Of a DNA stretch of 64,000 bases, positions 48,607 through 52,542 are shown one piece after another (position 1 is the stretch's first letter; the number at the start of each line of letters is the position of its first letter). The notes beneath the pieces were generated by a model that worked only from the letters and a program-made list of their open reading frames with translations, ran no database searches and had not been told where the DNA came from. The stretch is taken from contig BRYA01000171.1 of the NCBI GenBank assembly GCA_030267965.1, positions 9,869 through 73,868 on the forward strand, written 5' to 3'. Position numbers and translations under genes: made by a program. Origin of the DNA: Triparma columacea. Its lineage: Eukaryota; Sar; Bolidophyceae; Parmales; Triparmaceae.

Positions 48607-48917
48607 AGAGAGCGGGGGACGAGGAGTTGACTGGTGGGATTAACAAGAAGCTAAAGCAACGACCTTTAAACAAAAACAGTAGAGTGCTTCGTTTCTCTCT
48701 ACACAACATAACATCCTTTATTTAGTTTATCACCCCTCACTCCACAAACAGAAAACCACCCTCTTATACCCCCCCCCGACCCCATTCATCCCTGACTACG
48801 CTTGCACTGTCTTTGTTTCGTTTGGGTGGATATTATGATATCCAGTTTGGTTATTTTTTATGGTATTTTTGTTTATATTTCACGAACGTCAACGCTCAAA
48901 GCAGCAAGAGTAAATAT
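48607..48917. other. Convergent 3' region of Sec31 and H2A
   Basis: This 311-bp gap lies between two facing stop codons. The H2A half contains the histone 3' hairpin (48828-48843) and AACAAAGA element (48810-48817). The Sec31 half shows an A-rich stretch near 48640-48690 and nothing recognised. Confidence 0.5.
48810..48843 (-). terminator. Histone-type 3' hairpin and downstream element of H2A
   Basis: On the minus strand the hairpin is GGATAT-CATA-ATATCC (48843-48828), 75 nt after the stop. It is preceded by CCAAACT and followed by ACCCAAAC. Exactly 10 nt past the stem is AACAAAGA (48817-48810). The stem differs from the other three copies at two base pairs, both kept paired. Confidence 0.8.
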
Positions 48918-49473
48918 TTACTCGGACTTCTTGGGGAGAAGGACGGCGTGGATGTTGGGGAGGACACCTCCGGCAGCGATGGTGACTCCGCCGAGGAGCT
49001 TGTTGAGTTCCTCGTCGTTCTTGACAGCAAGAGTGATGTGCCTGGGGATGATCCTGGACTTCTTGTTGTCGCGGGCGGCGTTTCCAGCGAGCTCGAGGAT
49101 CTCAGCGGTAAGGTACTCGAGGACGGCGGCGCAGTAGACTCCGGCTCCGACTCCAACACGCTTGGCGTATCCACCCTGCTTGAGGTACCTGGCAACACGA
49201 GCGACGGGGAACGCAAGTCCAGCCTTTGAGGAGGAGCTCACACTCTTTCCACTTCCACGGCCTCCCTTTCCTTTTCCTTTTCCTGCGATAGGATGGAAGA
49301 TGAGAGTGAGTAATTTGGTGGAAAGGCTCAAAATTCGTTGGTGAGAAGAGGTCGACTCGTGCCGATGATGAAAAATGAACCTTAAAGCATCATCGTAGAA
49401 ATAAAATGTTATATTTGCGTATATGATAGTACTAAGAGAGTCTAAGAAACAATTTGGACGACGTACCTGACAT
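48918..49473 (-). CDS. H2A: Histone H2A (123 aa)
   Basis: Coding sequence joins 49467-49473 and 48918-49282. The first coding exon is only ATGTCAG, with donor GTACGT and a 184-nt intron in phase 1, and it yields the canonical start [15 protein letters not shown]. The histone fold follows ([24 protein letters not shown] is recognisable in two parts, with the acidic patch region [11 protein letters not shown] and [10 protein letters not shown]). The tail ends PKKSE and lacks the SQ phosphorylation motif of H2A.X, so this is a canonical-type H2A. It is divergent from H2B, with about 340 bp between the start codons. The donor and tiny exon are the same design as in H4. Confidence 0.92.
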
Positions 49474-49811
49474 GATTAAGTAGTTTTTTTGTTGATAAAA
49501 TTGAGGGTCGAACCCCAAAATTCAAGAACCAGAATATTCTGCGACTTCACGGAGCGAACCAGAATATTCTGCGACTTCACGCGAGATTTGTGTTGCATTC
49601 TTATCCTCCGTCTGATCAAAATTAATTATGTAAGTCTTATGCAGAAACATGGTCATAGAGGCGAATCGACCCGCTCTGTCCTTTCCTTGTGTATCGAAGG
49701 TGGCGCGGAGAAGGTTTAATCGCACGCCGTGCGTCTTATGGACTTCAAAAATGTCATCTCACCCCAAGTCTCGATTTCCCTCCCTTCTTCTCCCCCTGTT
49801 TTTGTAGTAAA
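49474..49811. promoter_or_regulatory. Bidirectional H2A/H2B promoter
   Basis: This 338-bp region lies between divergent H2A and H2B. It contains a 30-bp tandem repeat with the palindrome AGAATATTCT (49526-49581). A possible 5' UTR intron acceptor (TTTGTAG) lies just before the H2B ATG. Confidence 0.55.
49526..49581. repeat. 30-bp tandem repeat with palindrome in the H2A/H2B promoter
   Basis: GAACCAGAATATTCTGCGAC begins each unit, at 49526 and at 49556. Each unit includes the perfect 10-bp palindrome AGAATATTCT and then TTCACG. The location between divergent histone genes suggests a regulatory site shared by both. Confidence 0.8.
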
Positions 49812-50162
49812 ATGGCTAAGACTCCCAGCAAGAAATCAGCAAAGGGCGCCAAGAAGGGCGGTGCCACCAAGAAGAAGAAGAAGAGGACCGAGTCCTACAG
49901 CTCCTACATCTACAAGGTGCTCAAGCAGGTCCACCCCGACACTGGAATCTCCAAGAAGGGAATGTCCGTCATGAACTCTTTCATCAACGACACCTTCGAG
50001 CGCATCGCCACTGAGGCCGGAAAGCTCTGCAAGTACTCCAAGAAGGCTACCCTTTCCTCCAGGGAGATTCAGACTGCCGTCAGGCTCTGCCTTCCCGGGG
50101 AGCTCGCCAAGCACGCCGTCAGTGAGGGCACCAAGGCCGTCACCAAGTTCTCCTCCGCTTAA
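49812..50162 (+). CDS. H2B: Histone H2B (116 aa)
   Basis: The start is the ATG at 49812, giving [17 protein letters not shown], a Lys-rich tail. The fold is canonical: [17 protein letters not shown], then [17 protein letters not shown] and the C-terminal helix [19 protein letters not shown]2B pairs with H2A in the nucleosome. The coding part has no intron, although a TTTGTAG acceptor-like site just before the ATG suggests the 5' UTR may be spliced. An upstream open frame exists but is not histone-like. Codons are strongly C/G-ending, as in the other histones. Its 3' region holds the shared hairpin at 50247 and faces the H4 3' end. Confidence 0.95.
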
Positions 50163-50246
50163 ATGCTTTACAGTGTTCAAGCGTTGCGGTAACGCGACGT
50201 CACGTCTTTCTATAAACAAAAAAAAATCATAAAAATATACAAAACT

Positions 50247-50280
50247 GGGAATCATAATTCCCACCCTTACTAAACAAAGA
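50247..50280 (+). terminator. Histone-type 3' hairpin and downstream element of H2B
   Basis: The hairpin GGGAAT-CATA-ATTCCC (50247-50262) lies 84 nt after the stop, preceded by CAAAACT and followed by ACCC. AACAAAGA (50273-50280) starts exactly 10 nt after the stem. Confidence 0.85.
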
Positions 50281-50665: not shown

Positions 50666-51163
50666 TTAACCACCGAATCCGTAGAGGGTCTTGCCCTGCC
50701 TCTTAAGGGCGTAGACAACATCCATGGCAGTGACAGTCTTCCTGCGAGCGTGCTCGGTGTAGGTGACGGAGTCACGGATGACGTTCTCAAGGAAGACCTT
50801 GAGGACACCGCGGGTCTCCTCGTAGATGAGGCCGGAGATGCGCTTGACACCTCCCCTGCGGGCCAACCTGCGGATAGCAGGCTTGGTGATGCCCTGGATG
50901 TTGTCCCTAAGAACCTTGCGGTGCCTCTTGGCTCCGCCCTTTCCGAGTCCCTTTCCTCCTTTTCCGCGTCCTGTTGGTGGTAGCGAGAGGGTAAGGGTAA
51001 GCAGGCTAAAATGATGAACAGAAGGGAGAGTCGAGGAAGGGGGAGAGAGGGGCTATAAAATGACTTGATTAGGGGTCTCAGTACGTATCTATTATTCTCA
51101 GAGACGAAGAATACACATAAAAACATAGGAGGGGGGGGAAATATACCCGAACGTACCAGACAT
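50666..51163 (-). CDS. H4: Histone H4 (103 aa)
   Basis: Coding sequence joins 51157-51163 and 50666-50970, exactly 103 codons plus stop, the universal H4 length. The first coding exon is ATGTCTG with donor GTACGT; the acceptor is CCAACAG. Joining gives the canonical [20 protein letters not shown] start. The rest matches H4 nearly residue for residue ([46 protein letters not shown]) and ends LYGFGG. The gene is divergent from H3. A second copy of exon 1 and its donor lies 204 bp upstream (51361-51367) and could be spliced to the same exon 2 to give the same protein. Confidence 0.95.
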
Positions 51164-51480
51164 AGTTGATTAGTTAGTGTTTTGGTTTTGGGACCCAAAT
51201 CACACGCTGCCCATTTTGACTTGGTCTCAATGTTGCGGGAGATCAGGGCCCCTGTGTGAAAAAGGGCAAAAAATGTCTTCCTCTTCGTTCCAATTTTTTC
51301 CCGTCCAATCTGAGCGAGACATGCAAACATAGGAGGGGCGGGAGAGATACCCGAACGTACCAGACATAGTTGATTAGATTGTATTTTGGTTTTGGACCCA
51401 AATCACACACTGCCCATTTTCTTGGTCTCAATGTTGCGGGAGATCAGGGCCCCCCTGAGAAAAGGGGCAAAATGTTGCGA
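51123..51480 (-). repeat. Tandem duplication of the H4 5' region including exon 1
   Basis: The copy starting at 51123 recurs at 51327, 204 bp away, with high identity over about 150 bp and small indels. Each copy contains the H4 start exon ATGTCTG, the donor GTACGT and the upstream AACTAATCAACT-like leader (plus-strand views ACGTACCAGACAT and TTGATTAG). The copy nearer H3 is followed by an inverted repeat. Confidence 0.85.
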
Positions 51481-51742
51481 CCCCTGCAACATTTTGCCCT
51501 CAAATAATTAAGGTGTGAATTAGTATCATAATTGTGGTTTTCGTACTTTGTCTCCGCATTTCATTGATTTATATAGTCTTTTTTCGCAATATGCGTCTAA
51601 TTTAATCGATCGCTATCGCTTGTGAGGCTTTAAATTGAAACCTCCATGTAACTCGAGAATCTTTCCACCTGGCCATCTTATTCCCAGTCTTCATACCCCC
51701 TTTGGCTCACCTTCGCCCCACCACTCGCACCACCAGAACAAA
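51164..51742. promoter_or_regulatory. Bidirectional H4/H3 promoter
   Basis: This 579-bp region separates divergent H4 and H3. It contains the second H4 exon 1 copy, the inverted repeat at 51465-51499, and an AT-rich TTTATATAG segment near 51570 that could act as a TATA element for H3. Confidence 0.5.
51465..51499. repeat. Perfect 14-bp inverted repeat between H4 and H3
   Basis: Arms GGGCAAAATGTTGC (51465-51478) and GCAACATTTTGCCC (51486-51499) are exact complements around a 7-base centre GACCCCT. They could form a strong hairpin or a dyad binding site. Confidence 0.9.
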
Positions 51743-52153
51743 ATGGCTCGTACCAAGCAGACCGCACGTAAATCAACTGGAGGAAAGGCCCCCAGGAAGC
51801 AGCTCGCCACCAAGGCCGCCCGCAAGTCCGCCCCTGCCACCGGCGGAGTCAAGAAGCCCCACAGGTACCGCCCCGGAACCGTCGCCCTTCGCGAGATCCG
51901 CAGGTACCAGAAGTCCACCGAGCTCCTCATCAGGAAGCTCCCCTTCCAGCGCCTCGTCCGCGAGATCGCCCAGGACTTCAAGACCGACCTTAGGTTCCAG
52001 GGATCCGCTGTCCTCGCTCTTCAGGAGGCTGCTGAGGCTTACCTTGTTGGCCTCTTCGAGGACACCAACCTCTGCGCCATCCACGCCAAGCGTGTCACCA
52101 TCATGCCCAAGGACATCCAGCTCGCCCGCCGCATCCGTGGCGAGAGGTCCTAA
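51743..52153 (+). CDS. H3: Histone H3 (136 aa)
   Basis: The start is the ATG at 51743, giving [20 protein letters not shown] and the standard length. Modified lysines 4, 9, 14, 27 and 36 are all present (ARKS at 9 and 27, GGVKKPH at 36). Residue 31 is Ala. At the chaperone-recognition region it reads GSAVLAL instead of the animal SSAVMAL (H3.1/H3.2) or SAAIGAL (H3.3), so the animal variant classes do not apply directly. The coding sequence has no intron, unlike H2A and H4. The upstream open frame to 51635 contains no histone-like residues and is ignored. It is divergent from H4. A 3' hairpin lies at 52284. Confidence 0.96.
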
Positions 52154-52542
52154 ATTGCTTCCTAGTTCCTTCGCGATAGTTGCCCAGTAATGGGAAATTG
52201 TCGAGGGGGGACAAAGGCAGCGATTGGTCACTGATCGTACAACATATACCAAGAAAAAAATCCATAAAAAATAAAACAAAACTGGGAATCATTATTCCCA
52301 CCCAAACGTAACAAAGAACCAAGCAATGGACAATGGTGTTGAGGAGGGGAGAGGGGGGTGGTCGTAGCAATAAATTAGACGTCGTGTTGTTGAAGTGCAA
52401 AGGAAAAGAAAAGTTGGAAATGTCAAATCTTGATGTGTACATTTTACCATCTCCTACAAACAACACCTTATCACCTTCTCCACCCCTACCCTCCCTTTAC
52501 CATTATACCCCCCAATCCGTCCCCCCATTCCGCCCCCCCAAA
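52154..52542. other. Region between H3 and the CLU gene
   Basis: This 389-bp gap holds the H3 3' hairpin and downstream element, then the presumed promoter of the CLU gene. An open frame from an ATG at 52333 runs into the CLU coding sequence; I judge it upstream noise, but it could extend the protein by 70 residues. Confidence 0.4.
52284..52317 (+). terminator. Histone-type 3' hairpin and downstream element of H3
   Basis: The hairpin GGGAAT-CATT-ATTCCC (52284-52299) lies 130 nt after the stop, preceded by CAAAACT and followed by ACCCAAAC. AACAAAGA (52310-52317) starts exactly 10 nt after the stem. Confidence 0.85.

Follow-up and report, generated by a model that had tools for sequence, protein, structure and literature searches.

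Histone genes of the window and their 3' signals

The window analyzed here, a stretch of 64,000 nucleotides (nt) from the marine alga Triparma columacea (contig BRYA01000171.1, positions 9,869 to 73,868 of the forward strand), contains a single cluster of the four core histone genes, in which H2A points away from H2B, H2B and H4 converge on each other, and H4 points away from H3 (Table 1). Downstream of each of these genes lies the same succession of elements: an A-rich stretch, AAACT, a palindromic stem of 6 base pairs (bp), a CATA or CATT loop, ACCC, six variable bases and the downstream element AACAAAGA. An initial annotation, made from the sequence of the window, had claimed that all four genes share a 3' hairpin followed by a downstream element, and reading and alignment confirm it; the starts that it gave for AACAAAGA (48817, 50273, 50552 and 52310) are exact, and the element follows the stem after 10 nt in all four genes. 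The hairpin also stands soon after the stop codon in every case, at distances of 74, 84, 87 and 130 nt, which corrects the claimed range of 75-131 nt to 74-130 nt. In folding predictions the hairpin belongs to the minimum-energy structure of all four stretches (z -2.2 to -3.4), with an extra U-A pair at its base in each of them that makes the stem 7 bp long if the flanking pair is counted. The block that different histone types have in common is 50-83 nt long, and the parts of the 3' untranslated region (UTR) outside it align poorly among the four genes. In H2A, two pairs of the stem are not those of the other genes, and both changes are compensated (GC to AU and AU to UA); this stem type is found in 4 of 17 aligned sequences, all H2A. 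When the alignment was compared with 500 shuffles, none of them reached its pairing and covariation scores.

Table 1. Histone genes and putative 3' processing signals of the cluster, in window positions
Feature	Position	Strand	Basis
H2A 3' hairpin GGATAT-CATA-ATATCC, flanks AAACT and ACCC	48828..48843	(-)	read, aligned, folded
H2A downstream element AACAAAGA	48810..48817	(-)	read, aligned
H2B 3' hairpin GGGAAT-CATA-ATTCCC	50247..50262	(+)	read, aligned, folded
H2B downstream element AACAAAGA	50273..50280	(+)	read, aligned
H4 3' hairpin GGGAAT-CATT-ATTCCC	50563..50578	(-)	read, aligned, folded
H4 downstream element AACAAAGA	50545..50552	(-)	read, aligned
H3 3' hairpin GGGAAT-CATT-ATTCCC	52284..52299	(+)	read, aligned, folded
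H3 downstream element AACAAAGA	52310..52317	(+)	read, aligned
H2A coding exon 2	48918..49282	(-)	sequence and Pfam histone model search
H2A first exon ATGTCAG	49467-49473	(-)	by-eye reading, GT...AG intron to exon 2
H2A intron	49283-49466	(-)	by-eye reading
H2B coding sequence	49812..50162	(+)	sequence reading
H4 coding exon 2	50666..50970	(-)	sequence and translation
H4 first exon ATGTCTG	51157-51163, or duplicate 51361-51367	(-)	by-eye reading
H4 intron	50971-51156	(-)	by-eye reading
H3 coding sequence, canonical type	51743..52153	(+)	sequence reading

Distribution of the hairpin in the genome

The 37.85 Mb assembly was scanned with a 24-base hairpin pattern allowing up to three mismatches, with the reversed pattern as control. 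The hairpin was found at 18 places, every one of them without mismatches, and the reversed pattern at none. Thirteen of these hairpins directly follow an intact histone C terminus (four H3, four H2A, three H2B and two H4), four adjoin assembly gaps and have H3- or H4-like flanks, one of them also showing the H4 tail GFGG, and the remaining one follows a degraded H3 (L016, G000:C248:21135-24275). The downstream element AACAAAGA occupies the same spacing in 17 of the 18 places. On its own, AACAAAGA is frequent in the assembly (2049 places), and therefore its fixed position is the informative part. The scan finds hairpin and element together at histone genes, and the motif was not seen equally often at non-histone genes, the outcome that the initial annotation had named as speaking against its proposal. 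A relaxed pattern with an open stem and one mismatch allowed matched 29 places versus 9 in the control, namely the same 18 exact places and 11 with one mismatch; none of these 11 pairs at all six positions, and four reach five of six, three of those four being identical in sequence. The specific pattern had no match in viral contigs, where a looser one returned at least 120 stretches. A single match in the prokaryote genomes was taken as chance; it comes from Lachnospiraceae, and no downstream element occurs in the 181 bases read there. The degraded H3 copy keeps a perfect hairpin followed by AACAAAGT, a version of the downstream element with its last base changed. A second apparent quartet is located at G000:C403:29306-31762 (H3-, H4+, H2B-, H2A+), in the order of the window on the opposite strand and interrupted by assembly gaps, its H3 being recognized from the flank only.

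An internal control is provided by the histone variants. A search of the genome with Pfam histone models returned 18 places, eight of which have the hairpin downstream (four canonical H3, two H2A, one H2B and the degraded H3). The hairpin is lacking at the other ten, which comprise H3.3-like, CENP-A-like, H2A.Z and H2A.X-type (ending in SQEY) genes, a second H2B, the locus L009 and four non-core histone-fold genes, the variant names having been assigned by reading the sequences. For the five variant-type core histone genes this absence holds within 1362-1485 nt past the stop codon, the first 500 of them gap-free; for L009 only 75 nt were covered. Some H2A and H2B genes beside gaps escaped the model search and came to light through their hairpins, and no H4 was among the 18 places of this search, H4 having been identified through hairpins and translation. 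Judged from the sequences, this split between canonical and variant genes is the pattern that would be expected of a replication-dependent class. At L009 (G000:C290:36392-36646), the N-terminal part of an H3 continues in frame into unrelated sequence within an open frame of 596 amino acids, which makes it a chimera or an assembly join.

Candidate processing factors

The genome encodes one SLBP (expectation value, E, 2.5e-20), whose best solved-structure matches are likewise SLBP (E 5.6e-13), so that the search for this protein suggested by the initial annotation gave a clear answer. Eight proteins were found to be related to it, one of which, from Triparma laevis, is 50% identical across 44% of the query. 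Residues were numbered from the threonine of the TPNK motif (Thr171) along an alignment, free of gaps, with the fly protein 4tv0, the solved SLBP that matches best. The position of Arg181 is occupied by K, as it is in five of the six aligned homologues, the sixth, that of Triparma laevis, having R; TPDA or TPDH replaces TPNK in all seven aligned proteins, the query included. Since the K and the TPD are common to the group, they are not attributable to the altered loop. The claim of an altered specificity is accordingly fair for the sequence of the hairpin and does not extend to these SLBP residues. The second stem base, presumably position 7 of the animal stem-loop, is an invariant G in these hairpins. 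A G at stem-loop position 7 is described as a requirement of SLBP (PMC10388802).

In animals, LSm11 is presented as a marker of the U7 small nuclear ribonucleoprotein (snRNP), and together with FLASH it recruits the cleavage complex (PMC12774660, PMC7026596). The Triparma genome contains 17 LSM-domain places, among which SmD2 and SmD1 are both clear and each is separate from the extra candidates. The top four solved-structure matches of one such candidate, L073, are all LSm11 (E 9.4e-5 to 0.0014), followed by SmD2 at 0.0025 and weaker, and the genome holds a near-identical full copy of it (P0009). With these modest scores, the product of L073 is a likely candidate for an LSm11 present in addition to SmD2. 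Another extra protein of the SmD1/LSm4 type, L075, may be LSm10, for which it is a weak candidate. The proposed search for LSm10 and LSm11 therefore yielded a tentative LSm11-like protein and, for LSm10, this weak candidate. Two different SmD3-like coding stretches, L072 and L074, were also recognized by reading among the LSM places.

A small RNA complementary to AACAAAGA, whose presence had been suggested as a further check, was not found in this assembly, from which U2 was not recovered either. Two places were matched by the Rfam U7 model, with E of 9.08 and 9.84 and 16 bits (cut-off 34), and its weak matches occur also in 12 of 14 prokaryote control genomes. Three patterns combining a complement of the element with an Sm site were searched as well. 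The pattern TCTTTGTT followed by AWTTTNTC was found at 21 places versus 10 in the control, an unexplained excess; all of these loci but L039, which overlaps L038, were inspected and folded (20 of 21); several belong to repeated families, and in no case does a 3' hairpin follow a convincing Sm site. The combination of TTTGTT and TTTNTCTNG showed no clear excess (104 places versus 89 in the control), and 19 distinct places, picked by eye among the 104 and folded, yielded no convincing U7 RNA. The combination of TTTGTT with the spliceosomal Sm site, ATTTTTGG, occurred at 52 places versus 25 in the control, again an unexplained excess; the 50 stretches that cover all of them were folded and none is U7-like, seven having TC or TT before TTTGTT. 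As for the other small nuclear RNAs (snRNAs), U1 was found at 61.5 bits, below the cut-off of 69.5, and did not reach the gathering threshold in a scan of that locus, and U2 was not found among the 46 of 356 first-look candidates that were scored, which does not thereby show its absence. Therefore, with U2 likewise not found and U1 below cut-off, the negative result for U7 RNA says little. A shared snRNA promoter is not derivable from one U1 gene.

Comparison with known systems

The hairpins of animal histone genes follow the consensus GGYYYU-UUUC-ARRRCC. The Triparma signals have in common with the animal 3' end the 6-bp stem, the 4-nt loop, GG at the stem base, U-A at its top and ACCC after the stem, and also a downstream element that contains AAAGA, an SLBP, an LSm11-like protein and the restriction to non-variant core histones. 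In contrast, loop (CATA or CATT) and stems (GGGAAT or GGATAT) depart from the animal consensus, CU intervenes between stem and 5' As, introns that animal replication-dependent genes lack are present in H2A and H4, SLBP has K at the Arg181 position and TPD for TPN, and U7 RNA was not found. The animal-like geometry claimed for these hairpins holds for stem and loop and less so for the 5' flank, whose As are set off from the stem by CU, the U being pairable. Outside animals, histone hairpins and SLBP have reportedly been described from protozoa (Davila Lopez and Samuelsson 2008), which is the combination found here. To our knowledge, neither a downstream element nor a U7-specific protein was established there, whereas in Triparma a fixed AACAAAGA and an LSm11-like protein accompany the hairpin. 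The echinoderm downstream element, CAAGAAAGA, is resembled by AACAAAGA. AAAGAG is described as the purine core of the downstream element of mouse H2a (PMC10388802, PMC7026596).

In the openly licensed literature, mainly at the level of titles and abstract openings, no stramenopile was met that combines a downstream element at fixed spacing with an LSm11-like protein; among the papers listed, none dealt with LSm11 or U7 outside animals, and nothing on the topic of histone stem-loops or SLBP in diatoms or stramenopiles was found in that literature. The main text of the Parmales genome paper (PMC10328945) has no occurrence of the word histone.

Proposed mechanism and alternatives

In animals, SLBP sits on the hairpin, U7 RNA recognizes the downstream element by base pairing, and cleavage by CPSF73 takes place 4-5 nt past the stem (PMC12774660, PMC7026596). 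By analogy, it appears quite probable that the replication-dependent histone messenger RNAs (mRNAs) of this stramenopile are cut after the hairpin by SLBP and a U7-type snRNP and carry no poly(A). SLBP would bind the hairpin in the histone pre-mRNA, and an LSm11-containing U7-type snRNP would pair its RNA, predicted to carry UCUUUGUU near its 5' end, with AACAAAGA. CPSF73, the shared endonuclease, would then cut between hairpin and AACAAAGA, approximately 4-5 nt past the stem (about ACCC/N) and about 5 nt before AACAAAGA, and the product would be an mRNA ending at the hairpin without poly(A); coupling to S phase may be expected on the same grounds. The SLBP/U7-like processing of non-polyadenylated histone mRNAs suggested by the initial annotation is thus favored, at the level of sequence, by the SLBP gene, the modestly scoring LSm11-like protein and the histone-restricted motif.

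Several observations weigh against this mechanism. No convincing U7 RNA was recovered from the assembly by the Rfam model or by the three patterns of complement and Sm site. The match of L073 to LSm11 is modest, with an SmD2 chain next in rank (0.0014 versus 0.0025), and this protein has no relatives beyond P0009 in a search of limited sensitivity through 5.8 billion proteins; L075 matches LSm4 and SmD1, with no LSm10 among its solved-structure matches. The Rfam histone hairpin family is not matched either, with no match at gathering in the window and none among the nine matches at E<=10 in 48500-52600, and the H2A and H4 genes, both with an intron, depart from the intronless condition of animal-type replication-dependent histones. 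The covariation of the stem is effectively a single event, that of the H2A group, and the pair-count and type-count measures do not rise above shuffles (261 and 458 of 500, respectively, are at least as high). Furthermore, the 18 hairpin copies are paralogues, and therefore the independent evidence is the block shared by four unrelated genes.

Some of these points would also fit a different arrangement, which we consider rather unlikely, in which SLBP and hairpin work in the manner of other protists, the reader of AACAAAGA is a protein or an RNA other than U7, and the LSm11-like protein has a different role, as a diverged paralogue of SmD2. The U7 RNA that was not found, the modest LSm11 match of a protein that is an orphan in sequence searches and the weakness of the LSm10 candidate all go in this direction; however, LSm11 chains outrank all SmD2 chains in the matches of L073 and SmD2 is separately present, AAAGA lies in the element at a fixed distance, and the lack of an snRNA gene tells nothing in an assembly that did not yield U2 either. 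It is more doubtful still that the transcripts are polyadenylated, the hairpin regulating only stability or translation of poly(A)+ mRNAs and AACAAAGA being the context of a polyadenylation signal. The A-rich blocks upstream of the hairpin agree with this possibility and the introns of H2A and H4 suggest ordinary mRNA processing, but it leaves unexplained the restriction to non-variant core histones, the fixed spacing of hairpin and element, and the LSm11-like protein. That the likeness is without function and goes back merely to recent duplication of histone clusters or gene conversion between them is hardly credible, for although most of the 3' UTR is common to the H3 copies and different types share the block described above, that block occurs in four unrelated genes with poor alignment of the remaining UTR parts, the changes in the H2A stem are compensated, and the exact 8-mer recurs at fixed spacing in all places except the degraded H3 copy, with its one changed base.

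Functionally, the arrangement looks like the animal system, and it stands outside it by two strict measures, the Rfam hairpin family and intronless genes. U7 snRNP has been described as metazoan or animal histone mRNA machinery (PMC10578488, PMC7026596). On balance, we lean slightly toward the view that a complete U7 snRNP-dependent system (SLBP, LSm11/LSm10, U7 RNA and downstream element) operates in stramenopiles with hairpin and element sequences of its own, and that the U7 pathway predates the split of animals and stramenopiles, near the root of eukaryotes. If true, the occurrence of a downstream element and an LSm11-like protein in a relative of the diatoms would shift the origin of U7 snRNP back to early eukaryotes, and suggest that the animal-style histone mRNA system without poly(A) is far older than animals. 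A natural variant with a non-animal hairpin would also be useful for studying recognition by SLBP and U7.

Other features of the cluster

The introns of H2A and H4 were placed by eye at an identical position, after ATGTCNG. A tandem duplication within positions 51115-51472 of the window affects the 5' part of H4 with its first exon, ATGTCTG, and the splice donor; the copies are approximately 204 bp apart, have 87-92% identity and leave this H4 with two candidate first exons. The interval that separates H2A from H2B, which are divergent, contains two exact copies of a 26-nt unit, GAACCAGAATATTCTGCGACTTCACG, 30 bp apart (49526-49581), perhaps a promoter element shared by both genes.

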